A stretch of 24,052 bases of DNA from a virus. The stretch lies in IMG/VR virus record IMGVR_UViG_3300025645_000441, positions 1 to 24,052 of that record. One strand, written 5' to 3'. Made by a program: the position numbers and the translations under genes. The notes under the pieces were generated by a model. The model saw only the letters and a list, made by a program, of their open reading frames with translations, was not told where the DNA came from and searched no databases. This document shows positions 3,906 through 24,052 of this stretch, one piece after another (within the stretch, counting starts at the first letter, position 1; each line of letters opens with the position of its first letter).

Positions 3906-6377
3906 ATGTCAGACGATGTTGAAAAGAAGGCTGAAAAAAAGCCATCGAAAAAAGATGAAAAGATTATCAAAAACACTATCGAAGTGAATCCTACGTTAAA
4001 AGAGCAAACTGAAAAGACAGTTGTGTTAGGATGGGGTCGTATGAACCCAGTGACAGTTGGTCACGAAAAACTCGCAAACAAGATCAAGTCTGTTGCAAAG
4101 AAAAGCAACGCAACTCCTTTGATCTATCTCACACATTCCCATGATCCGAAGAAAAACCCTTTGAAGTATGACGATAAGGTCACTCTTGCTAAGAAAGCAT
4201 TCGGTCGTGATGTTGTACAAAAGTCCAAATCAAAAACAATCATTCAAGTAATGCAAGAACTAGATGGTAAGTATGACAATGTTATCGTTGTCGTGGGTCA
4301 AGATCGCATTGCAGAATTCGAAAAGCTTCTCACAAAATATAATGGTAAAGATTACACATTCGATAGCATCAAAATTGTATCAGCAGGTGATAGGGATCCA
4401 GATGCAGAAGGTGTCGAAGGTATGTCCGCATCAAAGATGAGAGCCGCGGCAGCGTCAGGTAAAAAGGATGACTTTATGTCAGGTCTACCAAAGGCTCTTC
4501 AGCGCGACGGAGAAAAGGTATATGATATGGTTCGTTCTGGTATGAATATTAACGAAGAAGTCGATCTTGAAGAAGATCGTGAACCTATGACACGCACACA
4601 ACGCCGCAATATGGCTATCGCAATGCGCCGTAATAAATCAAAGATTGCAGCAGGTCGTCGTAGAGCCGCAAATCGTAAGCCTACACCTGAGAAGATTAAG
4701 ATACGCGCTAATAAGCGCGCCCGCGATATCATCAAGAAGAAAGTCATTGGCAAATCTGGAATGTCGTATGACGAACTAAGCGATTCGCAAAAGCAAATGA
4801 TAGACAAAAAAGTGATGAAGCGTCAGGCTGCCATAAAGCGTCTTGCAAAAAAACTCATTCCAAAAATTAGATCAGAAGAACTTGATATTAACGCAGCGTT
4901 TACTCTCAATGAAGATTTTGAAACTTTGGTTGAACGTAAGACACCACAAGATGACAATATCAAAGACATGGAAGGCACACAGCCTAAAAAGTATTATAGC
5001 GGTGTGAAGAAATCTGAAAAAGATGATCGCGCTCGACACTTTGCTAAGGGTGCAAAAATGGACGATGATAATCCAGCTGCATATCGCGCTCGTCACTTTG
5101 CTAAGGGTGCAAAAATGGACGATGATAATCCAGCTGCATACAAGCCAGCACCAGGTGATGAAGATGCTGAGACAAAACCATCTAAGCATACCAAGAAGTA
5201 TAAAGAGATGTTTGACGAAGCCTCAGAAAATGATGTTAAACCTAGAAAGCGATATCACAATCTACTAAACTCTAACGGTACACCTAAAATTGATATGCGT
5301 TTCAAAGCGTTTCGTGCAAAGAAGCCTATGACTGAAGAGTTTGAAAATGACACGCAAGTTATCAATCTTATCGACAATATCTGGGAATCAGTTGAACTTG
5401 AAGAAAGCAAGACAGATGCCGCACTTCAGAAGAAGGCTGACAAGACTGAAATCTCAAAAAGCATTCTAAAGAATGTTTATGATAGAGGTGTTGCAGCATG
5501 GCGCACTGGTCATAGACCTGGTACTACCCCAGCGCAATGGGGTATGGCGAGAGTAAATAGTTTTGTCACAAAGGGCAAAGGTACATGGGGCAAAGCTGAT
5601 TCTGATCTGGCTGCAAAAGTTCGTAGTGAAGAAGTTGAACTAGACTCATTCTTTGACTTGAACGAACAGCTTGAACTTACTGAAGCGTCAATTCTCGACA
5701 AAGCACTTGCTGCAGTACATAAGCACGTTCTCGGTGGAACTGAACTTGGGGACATTGCATATCAAGTATCTCGTGCGCGTGGCGTAGACATGTCTGGTCG
5801 TGAACTTGAAAAGGCGTATGTAAGCAAATACGGCAAACCTGATACAGATAAAAAAGTTAATCCAGAATTACGTGCAAGACTCATGAAGAAATATAGCGTC
5901 AAGGAAGAGCATGGCGCAGGCGACGAAGGAACTGACAAGCTTACTAAGAAGTATAAGAAAGATACTCCTGGTGAAGATATGAACGAATCTTTTGACTCGT
6001 TGATGGAAGCCGAATGTCAGCTAATTGGCATGAAACAAATCAAACAGTTTGAAAAAGTTGTTGATGAACTGTTCAAGAAGTTTGATATTGACTTCAACTT
6101 TACAAAGCACTTCGGTGAACGTATGAGTGATGGCAGAAACACTCCTTGTATCACACTCAAAGAGTTGGCTGCATTTATCAAGAAGATTTACGCAAAGCAA
6201 GGTAAATCGATCAAAGGCGTTGCTGGCGCAGAAGCTGTCATCAAAGACATCCAAAGTGACTTGAATATTCCTGTTGCTGTTACTTACGACACGAAAAACG
6301 ATGAATTCGATGTTGTCATGAAAACTATCATGCGCAAGAAGAACTTCAAGAGTCCAGATAAAGTGATTACATACTAA
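3906..6377 (+). CDS. Modular protein: N-terminal nucleotidyltransferase plus basic and linker modules
   Basis: The 823-aa product has several blocks. Residues 37-200 form a cytidylyltransferase-like Rossmann domain (GRMNPVTVGHEKL, an HxGH-type site, and SASKMR as the second motif). Residues 228-322 are very basic and helical, probably DNA-binding. Residues 375-412 are a perfect 19-aa tandem repeat. Residues 503-575 hold a block with AAWRTGHRPGTTPAQW, which I tentatively recall as DUF5824. Residues 595-645 are a small helical block. Residues 700-823 form a conserved cyanophage-type end domain (FTKHFGERMSDGRN, IMRKKNF). Acidic linkers between blocks carry I/L-x-E triplets (217, 336, 343, 500, 587, 593, 701) that fit the T4 gp21 prohead protease consensus, so the protein may be cut into pieces in the capsid. 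This last point is inference. Confidence 0.85.
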   Translation: MSDDVEKKAEKKPSKKDEKIIKNTIEVNPTLKEQTEKTVVLGWGRMNPVTVGHEKLANKIKSVAKKSNATPLIYLTHSHDPKKNPLKYDDKVTLAKKAFGRDVVQKSKSKTIIQVMQELDGKYDNVIVVVGQDRIAEFEKLLTKYNGKDYTFDSIKIVSAGDRDPDAEGVEGMSASKMRAAAASGKKDDFMSGLPKALQRDGEKVYDMVRSGMNINEEVDLEEDREPMTRTQRRNMAIAMRRNKSKIAAGRRRAANRKPTPEKIKIRANKRARDIIKKKVIGKSGMSYDELSDSQKQMIDKKVMKRQAAIKRLAKKLIPKIRSEELDINAAFTLNEDFETLVERKTPQDDNIKDMEGTQPKKYYSGVKKSEKDDRARHFAKGAKMDDDNPAAYRARHFAKGAKMDDDNPAAYKPAPGDEDAETKPSKHTKKYKEMFDEASENDVKPRKRYHNLLNSNGTPKIDMRFKAFRAKKPMTEEFENDTQVINLIDNIWESVELEESKTDAALQKKADKTEISKSILKNVYDRGVAAWRTGHRPGTTPAQWGMARVNSFVTKGKGTWGKADSDLAAKVRSEEVELDSFFDLNEQLELTEASILDKALAAVHKHVLGGTELGDIAYQVSRARGVDMSGRELEKAYVSKYGKPDTDKKVNPELRARLMKKYSVKEEHGAGDEGTDKLTKKYKKDTPGEDMNESFDSLMEAECQLIGMKQIKQFEKVVDELFKKFDIDFNFTKHFGERMSDGRNTPCITLKELAAFIKKIYAKQGKSIKGVAGAEAVIKDIQSDLNIPVAVTYDTKNDEFDVVMKTIMRKKNFKSPDKVITY
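5028..5141 (+). repeat. 57-bp in-frame tandem duplication
   Basis: Two adjacent 57-bp copies (5028-5084, 5085-5141) encode RARHFAKGAKMDDDNPAAY twice and differ only at two synonymous third positions. The near identity points to a recent duplication inside the 823-aa gene. Confidence 0.97.
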
Positions 6378-7560: not shown

Positions 7561-8111
7561 AGACACTTAAAAAGCACATATACGAATCGACTGTAAAGGA
7601 AGGCGTAGATTATCACGTCAAAAATGAAATACCGTTATCGGAATGCGTGTTTCGTCCTCACTCAGAATGTTTCTACGAATTCTTTGTTGAAGCGCGAAAG
7701 CAATTCAACGAAGGTAAGCTAGACCTCTATAGTAAGTTTGACATCGACATGATGGGAACCGATATTGGCGAAAGAGCGATTTATGAAGATGAGATTGTTC
7801 CACTTGACATACCGTTGATGGAATCAGAATACAACGGAAAAGATGTTGAATTAAATCAGCCAAAACGTGGTGGTAAAAAGAAGTATTACGTGTATGTCAA
7901 GAATGATAAGGGTAATGTAATTAAAGTACAGTTCGGTGACACGACAGGATTGACAGCTAAGATTGATGATGTTAAGGCGAGAAAATCTTTTGCGGCTCGC
8001 CATAACTGTGATCAAAAGACTGATAAGACAAAGGCTGGTTATTGGGCATGTCGTTTACCTTACTATGCAAAACAACTTGGACTTTCAGGTGGTGGAAACT
8101 TTTTCTGGTAG
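7557..8111 (+). CDS. Conserved T4-like phage protein with internal-protein-like leader
   Basis: The 184-aa product starts MKTLKKHIYESTVKEG, with a candidate I-Y-E/S cleavage site. The C-terminal 80 residues form a compact module rich in Lys, Gly and aromatics (KKYYVYVKNDKGNVIKVQFG, FAARHNCDQKTDKTKAGYWA, ending LGLSGGGNFFW) that I recall as recurring at the C terminus of many marine phage proteins of unknown function. Two Cys and a His in it (HNC, WAC) might bind metal. It overlaps the previous gene by ATGA. Confidence 0.7.
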   Translation: MKTLKKHIYESTVKEGVDYHVKNEIPLSECVFRPHSECFYEFFVEARKQFNEGKLDLYSKFDIDMMGTDIGERAIYEDEIVPLDIPLMESEYNGKDVELNQPKRGGKKKYYVYVKNDKGNVIKVQFGDTTGLTAKIDDVKARKSFAARHNCDQKTDKTKAGYWACRLPYYAKQLGLSGGGNFFW

Positions 8112-8115
8112 AATC

Positions 8116-8388
8116 ATGACAAAACCATATTATGATATAAAGACTGATGGCGATAGCGAATGGATTAGAATGTTCGACACATCTACCGACAATGAAGAAC
8201 TTCTATGGCACAGAGATCACAAAACTCGTCATATTGAAGTTATATTTGGTCGCGGTTGGAAGTTTCAGCGAGACAATGAAATACCGTTTGACATAAATAC
8301 AAGTAGTAAATTCGAAATAGAATCCATGGTGTATCATAGACTCATAAAGGGTAGTACACCACTGATTATAAAAATAAAGGAACAATAG
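8116..8388 (+). CDS. Conserved small protein, unknown function
   Basis: The 90-aa product begins MTKPYYDIKTDGDSEWIRMF and ends LIKGSTPLIIKIKEQ. The pattern WHRDHKTRHIEVIFGRGWKF followed by YHRLIKG is familiar from T4-like cyanophages, where it is unannotated. It starts 4 bases after the preceding stop, with no strong ribosome site, so it is probably read by coupling. No enzyme motif is visible. Confidence 0.7.
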   Translation: MTKPYYDIKTDGDSEWIRMFDTSTDNEELLWHRDHKTRHIEVIFGRGWKFQRDNEIPFDINTSSKFEIESMVYHRLIKGSTPLIIKIKEQ

Positions 8389-8389
8389 C

Positions 8390-10057
8390 ATGACTAATAA
8401 GTTATCTGCATCTTTCATCAAGGCTTTCGGTGAAAAAACTGCTCAGTTAAACCCAAAGGCAGTAGTCAATGAGGAAACTAGTAGAACCATTATCGAACGT
8501 AAAATCTCGGAACTATCTTCCAAGATCAATGCAGCACGTATTGGTGGTACAGGTCACATTGGCAAACTGACTGAAGAGAAAGCACTTCTACAGCATCAGC
8601 TTGCATCACTGAATGAGACCTCTAAGATTGAACGTATTAGTGAAGCTATGGATCCAGTTAATCCAAAAGCAGTGAAAAAGAAGTTTGATGATCGTAAAGA
8701 CAAAGACATTGACAATGATGGTGATGTTGATTCCTCTGACGAATATCTACACAAGCGCCGTAAAGCTATCTCAAAAGCTATGAAGAAAGAAGAAGTTGAA
8801 CTTGATGAAGTTTCAAACGCAGTTAAAGATCAGTTGGGCAACATCGACCTATCAATCCGCGATTGGGAAAGACGTTGGAAAAATAAGAGTGCTGGTAATC
8901 CAAATGACATGAAGGCACCTCAGAAAATCCAGGATCTGAAAGCGCAAAAGGCTGCGCTCATGAAAAAACATGGTATCAAAGAAGCTGTAGACCTAGACGA
9001 GGCTGGTCCAAAGATGAAGCCAGACTTCGTGAAGACTCAGCGAGCAAAAGATGCTGCGCACAACGCTGCAATGGGTCGCACTGCTACAGGTCGTAAGAAG
9101 CCAGTTCGTACAATGACTTCCACCCAAAGATCAATGGCTTCTATGAAGAAAGAAGAACTTGAGCTTGATGAAAAGGTCAACGAAAAAGCAATCAAAAAAG
9201 CTGTTGATGACGGTAAGTCTATGGACGTTATTGTCGGCATGTTTGCTAACAAGCGCACGACAAACACAGATGAAATTCGTCAAGTTGTGAAAGACTACAT
9301 GTGGAATAAGCGCATGAAGAAAGAAGAAGTTGAAAATCTTAAAGAATTGACTGCTTTCGAAAAGAAACTGATTAACCAAATGTATGATAAGAAAGGCAAC
9401 CTAACACCAATTGGTAAGAAGGTGATGGATGCTGGACAAAAGAAAGAAGAAGTTGAAAATCTTAAAGAATTGACTGCCAAACAACGCGCTCTTGCAAAGG
9501 CTGATGATGAAGCTAAATCAAAGGACAAAGTTTCATTGAAGAAAGCACCTTGGGATACAAAAGAAGAAGTTGCTGAATCAGTTGGTCTAACGCAGACACT
9601 CATAGAAAAAGCTCTTTCAAAGAAACAACAGATGGCAGCAGGTGCGGCACTCGCAGCAAAGCGTGGAGATGCAGATCCTTCTGAACTCGTTGGCGCATCA
9701 AAAGAGATGTACGATAGTATGTCAGAGAAAGACCTAGAAGACTTTGCCAAGACGAAGCATAAAGGTCTTCCTATGAAGAAAGAAGAAGTCGAACTTGATG
9801 AAGCCTACACAATCAATCACAAGACTTTCTCTGCAGCCGTTCAACATGCGAAAGCACAAGTAGAAAAGCAAGGCTACACTATCGATGATGACGAATGGGA
9901 TCGTAAAGTTGCGATGGGTCCAAAGAAGCCTGGTACAGGTAAGACCAATCGTTACACAATCGAATTGATGAAAAACGGAAAGCCTACTAAGCGTATGCTT
10001 CAAATGCAAGTTTACTACGATGAAGGTCGTTACGAACTTAACATGTATGTATCGTAA
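8390..10057 (+). CDS. Repeat-bearing putative internal head protein with EF-hand-like loop
   Basis: The 555-aa protein is highly charged and mostly helical. Residues 106-118 form an EF-hand-like calcium loop (D-x-D-x-D-G-x-V-D, sequence DIDNDGDVDSSDE). A KKEEVELDE-type segment recurs five times (about residues 131, 252, 309, 350, 462), two of them in the variant KKEEVENLKELTA. Residues 472-555 form a separate beta-rich module (INHKTFSAAVQHA ... GKTNRYTIELMKNGKP) common in marine T4-like phages. I/L-x-E triplets, including ISE/A (85) and LDE/A (204 and 471), fit the T4 prohead protease. AAAGGAACA serves as ribosome site. I infer a capsid-internal, perhaps processed, DNA-associated protein; no function is proven. 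Confidence 0.8.
   Translation: MTNKLSASFIKAFGEKTAQLNPKAVVNEETSRTIIERKISELSSKINAARIGGTGHIGKLTEEKALLQHQLASLNETSKIERISEAMDPVNPKAVKKKFDDRKDKDIDNDGDVDSSDEYLHKRRKAISKAMKKEEVELDEVSNAVKDQLGNIDLSIRDWERRWKNKSAGNPNDMKAPQKIQDLKAQKAALMKKHGIKEAVDLDEAGPKMKPDFVKTQRAKDAAHNAAMGRTATGRKKPVRTMTSTQRSMASMKKEELELDEKVNEKAIKKAVDDGKSMDVIVGMFANKRTTNTDEIRQVVKDYMWNKRMKKEEVENLKELTAFEKKLINQMYDKKGNLTPIGKKVMDAGQKKEEVENLKELTAKQRALAKADDEAKSKDKVSLKKAPWDTKEEVAESVGLTQTLIEKALSKKQQMAAGAALAAKRGDADPSELVGASKEMYDSMSEKDLEDFAKTKHKGLPMKKEEVELDEAYTINHKTFSAAVQHAKAQVEKQGYTIDDDEWDRKVAMGPKKPGTGKTNRYTIELMKNGKPTKRMLQMQVYYDEGRYELNMYVS
8780..9802 (+). repeat. Five dispersed copies of a KKEEVELDE-coding repeat
   Basis: Near-identical 30-base segments coding MKKEEVELDE or a variant occur at 8780-8809, 9143-9172, 9314, 9437 and 9773-9802. 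The third and fourth extend into a shared NLKELTA stretch, so these two are near-perfect 40-base copies. They separate otherwise dissimilar blocks of the 555-aa protein. Confidence 0.85.
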
Positions 10058-18711: not shown

Positions 18712-19130
18712 GGTATTATAATGGAGAAGAGTTTACTTCCGACATGATTGGTGACTATATTGGGTTTGTCTATTGTATCACTGATATGTCAACGTCCAAG
18801 AAATATATCGGAAAGAAAAACTTCAAGTCTACGCGGAAATTAAAACCGCTCAAAGGGAAGACCCGAAAGAGAACTGTAGTCAAAGAGAGTGACTGGCAGG
18901 ACTATTTCGGGTCTTCTGACATCGTGAAAGCTCTACTTGAGGAACACGGTAAAGACAATTTTCATAGGGAGATATTGCATCTATGCACCTTCAAAGGTGA
19001 ATTGTCATACATGGAGACATATGAAATTCTAATCAGACATGCTATAATCAAAGATGAATATCATAATGCTTTCGTTGGATGTAAAATTCATAAAAATCAT
19101 GTTCCTAAAGAAACTATTGAACGTTTCTGA
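18708..19130 (+). CDS. GIY-YIG-type nuclease of T4-like phages
   Basis: The 140-aa product shows a GIY-YIG-like core: GDYIGFVYCITDMSTSKKYI followed by GKKNF at residues 16-40, then SDWQDYFGSS and the helix with Glu (FHREILHLC) that would give the metal-binding residue. It lacks the NUMOD or other DNA-binding repeats of homing enzymes and matches a stand-alone family I recall across many phages, so it may be a phage DNA-processing nuclease and not a homing enzyme. Late promoter and hairpin suggest late-only translation. Its 3' end overlaps a convergent gene by 17 bases. Confidence 0.78.
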   Translation: MWYYNGEEFTSDMIGDYIGFVYCITDMSTSKKYIGKKNFKSTRKLKPLKGKTRKRTVVKESDWQDYFGSSDIVKALLEEHGKDNFHREILHLCTFKGELSYMETYEILIRHAIIKDEYHNAFVGCKIHKNHVPKETIERF

Positions 19131-19833
19131 CCATTCCTCTATACCAGTCTAAACCAGGAGAATCTTTACTTCTTTTATTATTTTTACCATCTGTCCACCA
19201 ATATAGACCCGCCAGTTGCTTGGATTTATTAGGGCACTTATATCCTTTAATTCTACCCTCTATCCAACCATCGCCCGGGTGTTCCTGTTTTCTACAATTC
19301 CGTATTCCATTGTTAAACCATTTCAGTTTTGACATAGTTTTCGAACTTTTTTCATAGTCTGAGTTCTGGCGCAGTTGCTCAACGTGCTTTTCTTTGAAGC
19401 TCTTGTTTTCAAAATTTCTTTTAATGCTATCCACTCTACTGTTTCTTACATCGCAGTCTCTCCATGTCGCTTTCATATTATCGGTGTTTGTTATTTTTCT
19501 ACCTTTTATAGAGTTTGATAGTTTTTCTCTAGATTCTTTACTCCAAGGATGAGCACCGCCGTCACCCTCTTCCGGCTTTAGATTGGCGAATGATTTTGAC
19601 TCCACTATATTCCACAATTCACTATATTTTAAACCAACTTCGCGTAGTTCGTCATTATCTTTGGTTTCTAGTAATATTTCTGTGGTTACATCGTATCCGT
19701 GCTTATTGATGTGTTTTTTCCAAATATTACCAGAGCCTTTATAAGTGTATGGGTCTTGCACAGTTTTGCCGAGATATTTCAATCCGGTCTTATTGTGCGT
19801 CTTTAGATATAGATAAATAGTATCGCTGGACAT
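19114..19833 (-). CDS. GIY-YIG homing endonuclease with NUMOD-like motifs
   Basis: The 239-aa protein has an N-terminal GIY-YIG domain (TIYLYLKTHNKTGLKYLGKT, then TYKGSGNIWKKHINKHG), a NUMOD3-like helix (HPWSKESREKLSNSIKGRK, about residues 95-113) and C-terminal repeats of the WFNNGIRNCR / GDGWIEGR type seen in free-standing phage homing enzymes. It is the only gene on the minus strand. The start at 19833 is chosen because AAAGGAGG lies 6 bases ahead; the in-frame ATG at 19878 has no such site. It has its own late promoter and converges on the preceding gene. It is probably a mobile intruder. Confidence 0.88.
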   Translation of the reverse strand: MSSDTIYLYLKTHNKTGLKYLGKTVQDPYTYKGSGNIWKKHINKHGYDVTTEILLETKDNDELREVGLKYSELWNIVESKSFANLKPEEGDGGAHPWSKESREKLSNSIKGRKITNTDNMKATWRDCDVRNSRVDSIKRNFENKSFKEKHVEQLRQNSDYEKSSKTMSKLKWFNNGIRNCRKQEHPGDGWIEGRIKGYKCPNKSKQLAGLYWWTDGKNNKRSKDSPGLDWYRGMVRNVQ

Positions 19834-19893
19834 TAAAGCCTCCTTTGGGTTGTCTAGAGTAGTTAGATGTTGTCGCATCGTGAACTACACTTT

Positions 19894-19901
19894 TATTTAT
19901 A
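19894..19901 (-). promoter_or_regulatory. T4-type late promoter on the minus strand
   Basis: The minus strand reads TATAAATA exactly; the start would be near 19888, 55 bases before the homing endonuclease ATG. It lies back to back with the plus-strand early promoter at 19928. Confidence 0.75.
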
Positions 19902-19927
19902 AAAAACATGTTTTCAGTAAATAGTGC

Positions 19928-19956
19928 TTGACATTCATAACGAATCACTCTATACA
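19928..19956 (+). promoter_or_regulatory. Early promoter cassette, copy 1
   Basis: TTGACA, a 17-bp spacer containing AACGAATCACT, and TATACA are followed by a leader with GTAACAAGAGAGAG. It serves the gene at 19984. Confidence 0.85.
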
Positions 19957-19983
19957 TAAGATGTAACAAGAGAGAGATACATC

Positions 19984-20166
19984 ATGACCACTTTTACTTT
20001 TACCGCATATAACAAAGTCTTTACTGCACAAGCGGTCAAAGGTTTAGATGTTATGGAGCAAGCAAACGAAAAATTGTTGTGGGGTAACGAAGCATATAAG
20101 CAAGGTATTTGGTTTGAACGGGGTGACACCGGTTATGAGTGGGTCGAAGGCAACTTTTTTGATTAA
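19984..20166 (+). CDS. Unknown 60-aa early protein
   Basis: The product begins MTTFTFTAYNKVFTAQAVKG and ends YEWVEGNFFD; it is neutral to acidic and aromatic-rich, with no known motif. It is a single-gene unit between promoter cassettes 1 and 2, with a purine-rich GAGAGAG ribosome site. It is likely one of the host-takeover genes made early. Confidence 0.65.
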   Translation: MTTFTFTAYNKVFTAQAVKGLDVMEQANEKLLWGNEAYKQGIWFERGDTGYEWVEGNFFD

Positions 20167-20171
20167 AGTGC

Positions 20172-20200
20172 TTGACATTCATAACGAATCACTTTATACA
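20172..20200 (+). promoter_or_regulatory. Early promoter cassette, copy 2
   Basis: It has the same boxes as copy 1, with a single change in the spacer end and the same leader. It starts 5 bases after the preceding stop and serves the gene at 20227. Confidence 0.85.
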
Positions 20201-20226
20201 TAAGATGTAACAAGAGAGAGGTGATC

Positions 20227-20430
20227 ATGTCTTGGGTAGTTAGGGGTCAATTTAGTCAAGTAAATGTTGGTCTTGGTGGCGATGAATGTGAATGGAGCGC
20301 TGTTCATGTTGACACTCAAGAAGAAGCTGAAGCTTGGTGGAATTGTCGGGTAAACCATTCTCGGTCTCAGCGGGTTGTTCACACGCTTTGGAATCCTCAG
20401 GGTGAAGTTGTTCGGGTTTTGTTTCAATAA
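20227..20430 (+). CDS. Unknown 67-aa early protein
   Basis: The product starts MSWVVRGQFSQVNVGLGGDE and ends PQGEVVRVLFQ; it has three Trp in the middle (EWSAVHV, EAWWNCRV). A GTG two codons upstream could be used, but the other cassette leaders place the ATG after GATC, so 20227 is preferred. No family is recognised. It is a single-gene early unit. Confidence 0.65.
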   Translation: MSWVVRGQFSQVNVGLGGDECEWSAVHVDTQEEAEAWWNCRVNHSRSQRVVHTLWNPQGEVVRVLFQ

Positions 20431-20434
20431 GTGC

Positions 20435-20463
20435 TTGACATTCATAACGAATCACTCTATATT
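20435..20463 (+). promoter_or_regulatory. Early promoter cassette, copy 3
   Basis: TTGACA, a 17-bp spacer identical to copy 1, and TATATT are followed by the same leader GTAACAAGAGAGAG. It serves the gene at 20490. Confidence 0.85.
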
Positions 20464-20489
20464 ATAAGAGTAACAAGAGAGAGATGATC

Positions 20490-20828
20490 ATGAACTACGA
20501 AATGACCACAGCAATCTACGAACTAATCAACTCCGTCAAAGCTGACTACTATCGTTATACTTCTCGTAACGGCACTAAAGAGCTTAGTGAAGTTAACAAG
20601 TGCATGATTGACGAGTTCAACGCTGAAATCGGTTACGATGTGGGTCGAAAGTATGCCAAAATCACCCAGCGTAACGGCGGCTCTGTCTGGGGCTTCGTGA
20701 TGCTTCAAGACGATAAGAAGTTCAAAGCAGGTGACATTCTGAAGGCTGCTGGCTGGGCAACTCCTGCTCGTAACTTTGCTCGTGGAAACGTCTTTGAAGA
20801 ATATAACGTTCAATGGACTGGTGCCTAA
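20490..20828 (+). CDS. Unknown 112-aa early protein
   Basis: The product begins MNYEMTTAIYELINSVKADY and includes AKITQRNGGSVWGFVMLQDD and FKAGDILKAAGWATPARNFA. The second of these is a pattern I think I have seen in small phage proteins that track lysine-rich or nucleic-acid partners, but I cannot name it. An ATG two codons upstream (20484) is possible. It stands alone between cassettes 3 and 4. Confidence 0.7.
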   Translation: MNYEMTTAIYELINSVKADYYRYTSRNGTKELSEVNKCMIDEFNAEIGYDVGRKYAKITQRNGGSVWGFVMLQDDKKFKAGDILKAAGWATPARNFARGNVFEEYNVQWTGA

Positions 20829-20836
20829 ATTAGTGC

Positions 20837-20863
20837 TTGACAACTCCAACGAATCACTATAAG
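20837..20863 (+). promoter_or_regulatory. Early promoter cassette, copy 4 (diverged)
   Basis: TTGACA and the AACGAATCAC spacer element are kept, but the -10 region has drifted; TATAAG at 20858-20863 gives a 15-bp spacer. The leader GTAACAAAGAGAAG is conserved. It serves 20895 and 21083. Confidence 0.7.
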
Positions 20864-20894
20864 TTATAAGAGTAACAAAGAGAAGTGAGACACC

Positions 20895-21086
20895 ATGTTT
20901 TATAAGTTTCGTGAATCCATGCTGTATGCGGTTGCTCTGACCGAAAATTGGAAAGCAGACAATTCTATCAACTGGAACTTTGTCGATGCTGATATGTTCG
21001 AACACTGGCAAGTTCTGCTTGACGGCGAGACATACACCGAATGGTTCAATAAAGTTGCTGACGAAATCGAAGGAGTAGAAGCATGA
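20895..21086 (+). CDS. Unknown 63-aa acidic early protein
   Basis: The product starts MFYKFRESMLYAVALTENWK and ends ADEIEGVEA. It is acidic and helical, with four Trp. It overlaps the next gene by ATGA, so the two are co-translated. Its 3' end carries the AAGGAG ribosome site for that gene. No family is recognised. Confidence 0.65.
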   Translation: MFYKFRESMLYAVALTENWKADNSINWNFVDADMFEHWQVLLDGETYTEWFNKVADEIEGVEA

Positions 21087-21313
21087 ACTGGTTTATTGCT
21101 CTAGGTGATAATTCAAAACCCCGCAAGTTTTTCAACCGTGAGACACAGGGTTTCACTGACATCAGCCCTGTCTCTGCCTATAAAGAGCGTGGTGCAAATC
21201 GTCTTGCTAACTCTGGCGAGCCTTACAAGATTTGGGTAGCAATGTGTGAAAACGCATCTGATCTTGTCCTATGGCGGGTGAGTGAAGAGCACTATTTGAA
21301 AAATTATGCTTGA
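21083..21313 (+). CDS. Unknown 76-aa early protein
   Basis: The product begins MNWFIALGDNSKPRKFFNRE and ends WRVSEEHYLKNYA. It is coupled to the gene before it, with a good AAGGAG site 7 bases ahead. Its stop codon overlaps the -35 box of the next promoter cassette. No domain is recognised. Confidence 0.65.
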   Translation: MNWFIALGDNSKPRKFFNRETQGFTDISPVSAYKERGANRLANSGEPYKIWVAMCENASDLVLWRVSEEHYLKNYA

Positions 21314-21338
21314 CATTGCCAACGAATCACTCTATATA
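21310..21338 (+). promoter_or_regulatory. Early promoter cassette, copy 5
   Basis: TTGACA, a 17-bp spacer with AACGAATCACT, and TATATA are followed by the leader GTAACAAGACGAAAG. It overlaps the 3' end of the preceding gene and serves the cluster from 21367. Confidence 0.82.
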
Positions 21339-21366
21339 GATAATGTAACAAGACGAAAGAGATGAC

Positions 21367-21723
21367 ATGATTTACCAACTGATGCAAATCCGACTCACCA
21401 ATGACGAAGTTGATGCTATTAATGCTGCGCAAGATCACGGTGCAATTCCGAAGAACAAAATGCGTATTGCGATGCAGACAGACTTTAGTGGTTCGAAGAC
21501 TGCAAAGATCGCAGCCGAGGCGCTGAATAAAGGGTTCTACACCCATGTAGCAAACATCGAAGCGAATGACTTAGATGATGTTTTTGAAATCGGCAACATC
21601 GGTCCAGAGAATGCAATTGAACGTCTAAATCGGATGTCTCCTGCGAGTGTCGGTGATGTGATTGTTGATGAAGCAGGTAATACATCTGTTATCGCAAGTG
21701 TTGGTTTTCAGGAGGTAGTATAA
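21367..21723 (+). CDS. Conserved phage protein, unknown function
   Basis: The 118-aa product has a distinctive pattern, FSGSKTAKIAAEALNKGFYT followed by HVANIEANDLDDVFEIGN and SPASVGDVIVDEAGN, that I recall from marine phage accessory proteins without known role. The SVGDVI segment near the C terminus resembles a short beta module in several plasmid and phage accessory proteins. It is the first gene of a run of overlapping small genes after cassette 5, and overlaps the next by TAATG. Confidence 0.72.
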   Translation: MIYQLMQIRLTNDEVDAINAAQDHGAIPKNKMRIAMQTDFSGSKTAKIAAEALNKGFYTHVANIEANDLDDVFEIGNIGPENAIERLNRMSPASVGDVIVDEAGNTSVIASVGFQEVV

Positions 21724-23740: not shown

Positions 23741-23765
23741 TAACTAGTTAAATCGTAAAAAGTAG

Positions 23766-23799
23766 AACCCTCCTAGACGAAAGTTTAGGAGGGTTTTTT
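23766..23799 (+). terminator. Rho-independent terminator with GAAA loop
   Basis: A 13-bp stem (one G-T wobble) is closed by a C(GAAA)G tetraloop and followed by a run of T residues. It ends the 37-aa gene's unit and separates it from the promoter at 23811. Confidence 0.95.
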
Positions 23800-23810
23800 A
23801 ATTTTAATGG

Positions 23811-23839
23811 TTGACATTATAATACGAATCGATTATAAG
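23811..23839 (+). promoter_or_regulatory. Early promoter, sixth member of the cassette family
   Basis: TTGACA, a 17-bp spacer keeping ACGAATC, and TATAAG. The GTAACAAGAG leader seen in copies 1-5 is missing. It starts a transcript of what lies in the last 210 bases. Confidence 0.75.
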
Positions 23840-24052
23840 TTAATCATGAGACGAAGCGATAACATCAATCTCTCACGCTGTTTGAAAATTTAGTAACGTC
23901 TTAGGGGTAACCCGATGATAGACTGGAAACAGAAAGACTCTGTTTTCACATGCACACAAAGGCATGTCTTATTCGAAAGGTTCCGGTCTGTCACCGGGTT
24001 GCCAAAGTAAGATGTCTTGATAGGAAACGATCCGAGTGTGTGCAGTTGAAAG
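23840..24052 (+). other. Transcribed stretch without a clear gene; possible structured RNA or long leader
   Basis: After the promoter no convincing large ORF is seen. Hairpins can be drawn at about 23924-23949 (GAAACAGA with TCTGTTTT), 23949-23968 (ACATGC with GCATGT) and 23983-23997 (CCGGT with ACCGG), and TGCACACA (23951-23958) is complementary to TGTGTGCA (24037-24044). It may be a small RNA or a leader with regulatory structure, running past the window edge. It does not fit tRNA, tmRNA, RNase P RNA or group I intron motifs known to me. Confidence 0.35.
23915..24010 (+). CDS. Possible 31-aa peptide
   Basis: An ATG with AGGGG 7 bases ahead opens a frame beginning MIDWKQKDSVFTCTQRHVLF and ending SVTGLPK. 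The good ribosome site is the only support. A different frame from 23950 stays open to the window end (basic, four Cys) but lacks a ribosome site. Either could be spurious if the region is a structured RNA. Confidence 0.33.
   Translation: MIDWKQKDSVFTCTQRHVLFERFRSVTGLPK

Follow-up and report, generated by a model that had tools for sequence, protein, structure and literature searches.

The repeated promoters of this phage genome carry in their spacer an invariant element, CGAATC(A/G), which lies in one orientation and in fixed register, is widespread in uncultured viral records and is present in cultured phages of the Rhodobacterales. GAATC is one form of GANTC, the sequence methylated by CcrM of alphaproteobacteria. 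We propose, with moderate confidence, that the most likely function of the spacer site is to form GcrA/CcrM-sigma70 promoters in which GcrA binds the methylated site. The phages that carry the motif would then probably run their own genes via the epigenetic cell-cycle switch of the host.

The repeated promoters of the window

The window, which is the whole stretch of DNA analysed, is a 24,052-base IMG/VR record with a T4-like mixed gene set. The spacer core AACGAATCACT occurs in it exactly five times, always on the + strand (at 19939, 20183, 20446, 20848 and 21321), with 0 matches to the reversed-pattern control, and all five sites (19928-21338) follow the plan TTGACA-N5-AACGAATCACT-N-TA with a constant distance to TTGACA. 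The cassettes were grouped as a single repeat family of 51 nt. The features of this region are as follows.

19016..19926, no strand: segment absent from the near-identical contig L048, which has 116 nt in its place; right boundary at the -35 of cassette 1
19922..19985, + strand: promoter cassette 1; TTGACA 19928-19933, AACGAATCACT 19939-19949, GAATC 19942-19946, -10 slot TATACA 19951-19956, leader GTAACAAGAGAG from 19963, ATG 19984 (60-aa ORF)
20166..20229, + strand: promoter cassette 2; TTGACA 20172-20177, GAATC 20186-20190, -10 slot TATACA 20195-20200, leader from 20207, ATG 20227 (GTG 20221 possible)
20429..20492, + strand: promoter cassette 3; TTGACA 20435-20440, GAATC 20449-20453, -10 slot TATATT 20458-20463, leader from 20470, ATG 20484 or 20490
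20831..20897, + strand: promoter cassette 4; TTGACA 20837-20842, GAATC 20851-20855, weaker -10 slot TAAGTT 20860-20865, leader GTAACAAAGAGA from 20872, ATG 20895
21304..21369, + strand: promoter cassette 5; TTGACA 21310-21315, GAATC 21324-21328, -10 slot TATATA 21333-21338, leader GTAACAAGACGA from 21345, ATG 21367
23764..23797, + strand: strong terminator-like hairpin with a T run, between promoter 6 and the unit upstream of it
23811..23845, + strand: sixth promoter; TTGACA 23811-23816, CGAATC 23825-23830, -10 TATAAG 23834-23839, with a tRNA array downstream in contig L044

The original prediction had described five near-identical promoter cassettes. The five repeated promoters are real and their TTGACA distance is constant, but the description is slightly generous because cassettes 4 and 5 depart from the others in both the N5 stretch after TTGACA and the leader. 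Cassettes 1-3 are near-identical over about 50-64 nt, including the variable N5 and upstream bases, and share the leader GTAACAAGAGAG, to which the leaders of cassettes 4 and 5 are merely similar. An outlying sixth site that keeps ACGAATC had also been claimed at 23811 (TTGACATTATAATACGAATCGATTATAAG), and there TTGACA, CGAATC and the 17-nt spacing are indeed all kept. When sigma70-type criteria were applied (TTGACA, a spacer of 16-18 nt and a TATAAT-like -10), five of the six window promoters were found to have a TATA-like -10 at 17 nt, that of cassette 4 (TAAGTT) being weaker, while all six have a GANTC site within the -35/-10 region and all six sites fit the extended motif YGAKTCK. The leader begins 21 nt past the G of GAATC and a purine-rich stretch precedes the start codon. 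Transcription of the cassettes is expected to start near the G of GTAACAAGAGAG, and they may be early units with early timing.

Downstream of promoter 6, about 240 nt of unassigned sequence are followed by five tRNA matches (window 23811-24052; 8067-8730 of the near-identical contig L044), and an Rfam scan of the window returned tRNA only. No terminator-like stem-loops were detected at or between cassettes 1-5, and a hairpin in the leader RNA was no better than in shuffled sequences. In the leaders of 10 of 83 viral promoters (for example L054, L066 and L086) a second GAGAATCAC is seen just upstream of the start codon.

Constraint on the spacer element

It had been suggested that a factor may bind at the constrained spacer. 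Comparative evidence strongly supports this, with CGAATC kept in unrelated phages, in one orientation and at fixed registers, and conservation in relatives, the absence of which would have counted against the idea, was found. A scan of IMG/VR for TTGACA-N{2,6}-core gave at least 119 stretches, and because the viral loci were collected using the exact core, part of the counts that follow from them is not independent. Among the matches listed, the gap is exactly five in 85 of 101 distinct sites, nearly all of which are then followed by a TATA-type -10 and a gene start; matches with a gap of 2 to 4 were by their appearance mostly chance or coding matches and were set aside. The pattern TTGACN{9,11}GAATCN{3,5}TATA was present in 45 of 50 whole viral records of up to 342 kb, with up to 23 sites per record, all on one strand within a given record, and 0 matches for the reversed control.

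Promoters of the form TTGAC-N16-18-TATA were also collected from the same contigs with the exact-core ones excluded, and in about half of them GAATC lies at one constant distance from the -10. Once exact cores had been masked, GAATC was seen to follow TTGAC at offset 9 in 40 cases, at offset 10 in 14 and at offset 8 in 10, other offsets accounting for 0-5 each, and the opposite orientation, GATTC, was found 0 times. Natural substitutions were surveyed over all viral contigs with the geometry fixed as TTGACA-N5-AACGAATCACT-N-TATA. At this geometry the intact core is found at dozens of sites across all IMG/VR contigs and any change to CGAATC at 0-1 (GA[CGT]TC 0, [ACT]AATC 1, G[CGT]ATC 1, GAA[ACG]C 0, GAAT[AGT] 0, preceding C changed 0), while the following A is changed in 11; both single matches (L195 and L196) are isolated and chance-like. 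The per-position tolerance in near-core promoters is 11 and 8 for the leading AA, 1, 1, 1, 0, 0 and 0 for CGAATC, and 7, 13 and 7 for the trailing ACT. The substitution and tolerance counts therefore define the constrained element as CGAATC(A/G), with the N5 and outer bases varying freely across phages and CGAATC constant.

The motif-bearing records have terminases of several types that, judged by sequence, are unrelated. One is a T4-type terminase common to G001, G005, G017 and G023, another is 64% identical to that of Roseobacter phage CRP-6, and the nearest relatives of a third include those of DSL-LC06 and Pelagibacter phage HTVC111P. CRP-6 itself, the host of which is a Roseobacter RCA strain, has the identical core (TTGACGCCCACAACGAATCACTCTATACA) and carries GTGCTTGACGCCCACAACGAATCACTCTATACA ahead of a gene start. 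The pattern TTGACN{7,9}CGAATC was found seven times in Ruegeria phage DSS3P8, seven times in Rhodobacter phage RcXuper and four times in DSS3_MAL1 (control 0), once in PA5oct, and not at all in T4, KVP40, P-RSM1, GAP32 and RB43. Few or no matches were obtained in the Pelagibacter, rhizobial and Caulobacter phages tested, and the link is therefore to Rhodobacterales phages and not to all alphaproteobacterial phages. Searching cultured phages by BLAST, with the cassette as a short query, produced weak, unconvincing matches only. Between 137000 and 147500 of RcXuper (OP186293, L214), a region of small genes, about 19 promoter-leader cassettes were counted by eye, 17 of them with GAATC, which occupies two registers a helical turn apart, ahead of the common leader ACCGAAACG. 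Inverted copies of the cassette also seem to be present upstream of several of these.

In five cultured phages of Ruegeria, Phaeobacter and Rhodobacter, GAATC lies either 20-22 or 29-32 nt before ACCGAAAC at 104 sites (21 nt in the window), copies within one genome not being independent events because they are repeats. The stronger evidence is the agreement among these five mutually related phages and the unrelated window phage. The number of GAATC sites within 60 nt before ACCGAAAC was 16, 21, 28, 24 and 33 per genome against 1.1-1.7 expected, with 0, 3, 1, 2 and 0 for GATTC in the same 60 nt. The upstream register is one helical turn off and adjoins or overlaps the -35. Since the two registers are ten bases apart the site would be on the same face of the DNA, and this favours a DNA-bound factor in contact with the polymerase over direct recognition of the spacer by sigma.

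GcrA, CcrM and the alternatives

CGAATCA is TGATTCG on the opposite strand, which is the reported GcrA heptamer, the extended motif thought to be needed for activation by GcrA and broadly written YGAKTCK (PMC7987155). GcrA acts as a cofactor of sigma70 and brings polymerase to methylated promoters; its DNA-binding and sigma-binding domains are joined by an unstructured linker (PMC7403470), which would be compatible with two registers. Mutation of GANTC in Caulobacter reporters lowered activity by 60-80% (PMC3667746), and those Caulobacter transcription starts that have GANTC between -10 and -35 fall into a single distinct time class, the site being at -24 in podJ P2 and at -28/-29 in ctrA P1 (PMC4287350). 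From these likenesses we infer that GcrA is the factor and that its binding depends on methylation. The cassette would be a housekeeping sigma70-type promoter whose spacer carries one oriented GANTC, CGAATC(A/G), at about -22 to -16. The adenines of the site would be methylated by the CcrM of the host (or of the phage), upon which the host cell-cycle regulator GcrA would bind, bringing in RNA polymerase and accelerating open-complex formation. In this way the phage would tap, and may be timed by, the epigenetic cell-cycle switch of the host.

The complement of YGAKTCK is fitted by 37 of 43 viral promoters that lack the exact core, against a background of 39% of all GAATC in the same contigs. 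Other observations go against GcrA. In the five cultured phages only about half of the near-register sites fit, CGAATCT, which falls outside YGAKTCK, making up 23 of 47. YGAKTCK also permits GAGTC, which is essentially absent from the viral promoters, and a palindromic GANTC should accept any middle base and both orientations, but only GAATC in one orientation was found. The extended motif was not seen in Brevundimonas (PMC7987155), and in Rhodobacterales the importance of GANTC methylation may be lower. A published survey, in which a motif matrix was run over whole genomes of cultured alphaproteobacterial phages and not over a promoter-anchored register, found no positional asymmetry of GcrA sites (PMC9437464).

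Some of the phages encode candidate partners themselves. A CcrM-like beta-class adenine methylase of 288 aa is found in six motif-bearing records (G005, G008, G015, G017, G030 and G035; e.g. L134, L135). Its best solved relative is CcrM (E 2.5e-20); this putative GANTC methylase is a distant relative of PhiOC_p213 (27%) and scores under the curated CcrM cut-off. The GANTC specificity of PhiOC_p213 was shown via HinfI protection, and CcrM-specific methylases are common in alphaproteobacterial phages, their function remaining to be elucidated (PMC7139368). No recognised methylase was found in most of the motif-bearing phages examined. Phaeobacter phage MD18 (MT270409, about 108218-108436, L241) has a 135-aa frame in which the GcrA DNA-binding domain is near-perfect when compared with the solved one, and this may be a GcrA-type protein without the sigma-binding domain; the MD18 paper makes no mention of GcrA (PMC7643831). 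A GcrA gene was thus found in one of the five cultured phages and, above the cut-off, in none of the uncultured viral records, where there was one sub-threshold match (G046).

The strict orientation and the invariant middle A go beyond what GANTC needs, the element is not enriched in host chromosomes, and most of these phages are without a GcrA gene. These observations would suit some other factor that recognises a specific sequence, such as a so far undescribed protein of host or phage touching sigma70, and the overlap of the element with GANTC would then be coincidental. We regard this as unlikely, though deserving of some weight, given that an exact match to TGATTCG would hardly arise by coincidence, that among phages with the motif a cultured one encodes GcrA and others encode a CcrM-like methylase, and that the element is common to phages with unrelated terminases, which favours a host factor. 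Methylation of GANTC might instead, with no part for GcrA, modulate a repressor or RNA polymerase, for instance as a means of distinguishing replicated from parental phage DNA; the frequency of CcrM-specific methylases in alphaproteobacterial phages fits this, but fixed flanks, orientation and helical phasing would not be required, and we consider it improbable.

The two remaining explanations dispense with a factor altogether. The spacer may be an intrinsic feature read by the host sigma70-RNA polymerase, a strong design like that of T4 early promoters, which likewise show extra consensus beyond the -35 and -10. This is very improbable in our view, as the oriented GAATC is also kept one helical turn upstream, at or over the -35, and a move of 10 bp would be unexpected for such a feature. 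It is equally hard to credit that the cassettes are conserved merely through recombinational copying, in a PeSL-like modular shuffling that leaves the spacer unconstrained. That cassettes 1-3 share their variable N5 and upstream bases, and that contig L048 has a breakpoint at the -35, would agree with copying, but across phages the N5 and outer bases are free and CGAATC is not, so that the substitution counts refute copying as the sole explanation; moreover, PeSLs combine a promoter with a terminator and no stem-loop was detected among cassettes 1-5.

Extending the GcrA/CcrM-sigma70 reading, we suggest that a broad class of alphaproteobacterial phages (chiefly of Rhodobacterales, both cultured and uncultured and from lineages unrelated to one another) may run many promoters via host GcrA-CcrM-sigma70, with the site in one of two helically phased registers and infection gated by the cell cycle or methylation state of the host; for this wider proposal the arguments on the two sides seem to us evenly balanced. 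If true, it would account for the CcrM-like methylases or GcrA homologues that are encoded by some of these phages, and it would place the phage transcription programme under epigenetic control by the host cell cycle. If the promoters are built on a GcrA/CcrM site, the question why alphaproteobacterial phages have GANTC methylases so often, and some of them GcrA homologues, becomes directly testable in cultured phages. The motif is in addition of practical use as a marker, both to link uncultured marine phages with alphaproteobacterial hosts and to locate their promoters. In the part of the literature covered, no report of this promoter class was found, which is weak evidence of novelty.

Host, known systems and cassette recombination

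The NrdA of the window is closest to that of phages of Ruegeria, Rhodobacter, Phaeobacter, Sinorhizobium and Agrobacterium, its best matches being mostly alphaproteobacterial phages (Rhodobacterales and Rhizobiales), and for NrdB all 12 of the matches listed are alphaproteobacterial phages. For the gene at 70-1179 the closest matches are in phages that have other hosts; the genome is therefore mosaic, and we infer an alphaproteobacterial host from the gene relatives together with the motif-bearing cultured phages. In the chromosomes of 191 alphaproteobacterial genomes the same arrangement, sought with a strict pattern that required a near-consensus -35, gave 5 matches against 4 for the reversed control and so was not enriched; further scans of bacterial genomes with the strict promoter pattern gave 0 and 4 matches. 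In three alphaproteobacterial genomes (L208, L210 and L211), sites of the type TTGACA-N8/9-CGAATCR-TGTA lie upstream of related helix-turn-helix regulator genes and are a possible host counterpart of the phage promoter. In an alphaproteobacterial genome of 1.1 Mb (L209), CTTGACAAAAATTAACGAATCGTATATATT lies upstream of the gene for ribosomal protein L11.

The closest known parallel in mechanism would be the GcrA/CcrM sigma70 promoters of Caulobacter crescentus (mipZ, podJ P2 and ctrA P1), which likewise use sigma70, the heptamer TGATTCG/YGAKTCK and a GANTC between the -10 and -35 or at about -29; the phage promoters differ in their near-consensus -35, strict orientation and middle base, and repeated cassettes, and their dependence on GcrA is proposed from sequence. 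Control of phage promoters by a cell-cycle regulator of the host is known from the CtrA-controlled promoters of alphaproteobacterial phages (lytic deferment, PMC9437464), where both regulator and motif (TTAA-N7-TTAA) are different. The methylases PhiLM21_p027 and PhiOC_p213 likewise come from alphaproteobacterial phages acting on GANTC, and six motif-bearing records have a distant relative of the latter; whereas those two are known only as enzymes, here it is the promoters of such phages that contain GANTC, their target. The early promoters of T4 are also strong sigma70 promoters with extra conserved bases upstream of small genes, but T4 has UP and TGn elements and Alt, and was not matched by the looser patterns of this analysis. 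The PeSL cassettes of T4-type phages, as far as they are described where cited (Arbiol 2010 and Comeau 2014, in PMC4503421), resemble ours as repeated early-type promoters between small genes and as possible recombination joints; cassettes 1-5 differ from that description in having no detected stem-loop terminator and in carrying a conserved GANTC element that is spread far beyond T4-like phages.

Whole-cassette copying by recombination, the other process that had been put forward, has some support as an additional, secondary one in the shared variable bases of cassettes 1-3 and in the breakpoint of L048. It cannot account for a conserved CGAATC, since the element recurs, with differing flanks and downstream genes, in phages with unrelated terminases, and "mobile cassettes" alone were rejected on the ground that unrelated phages share the motif. 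Up to 19015, L048 matches the window with 99.95% identity; a stretch of 116 differing bases follows, and the two are identical again from 19927. Homology resumes at the C of CTTGACA in cassette 1, that is, exactly at the -35, and the left end of the divergent tract is inside a segE-like gene. The corresponding window segment, 19016-19926, holds a reverse-oriented endonuclease-like ORF (19114-19878). As regards gene shuffling between relatives, L048 shows this single breakpoint and contigs L044 and L116 are identical to the window across the cassettes. Elsewhere in the window, an 823-aa cytidyltransferase-like ORF contains a 57-nt in-frame tandem duplication (5026-5139), the copies of which are 98% identical.
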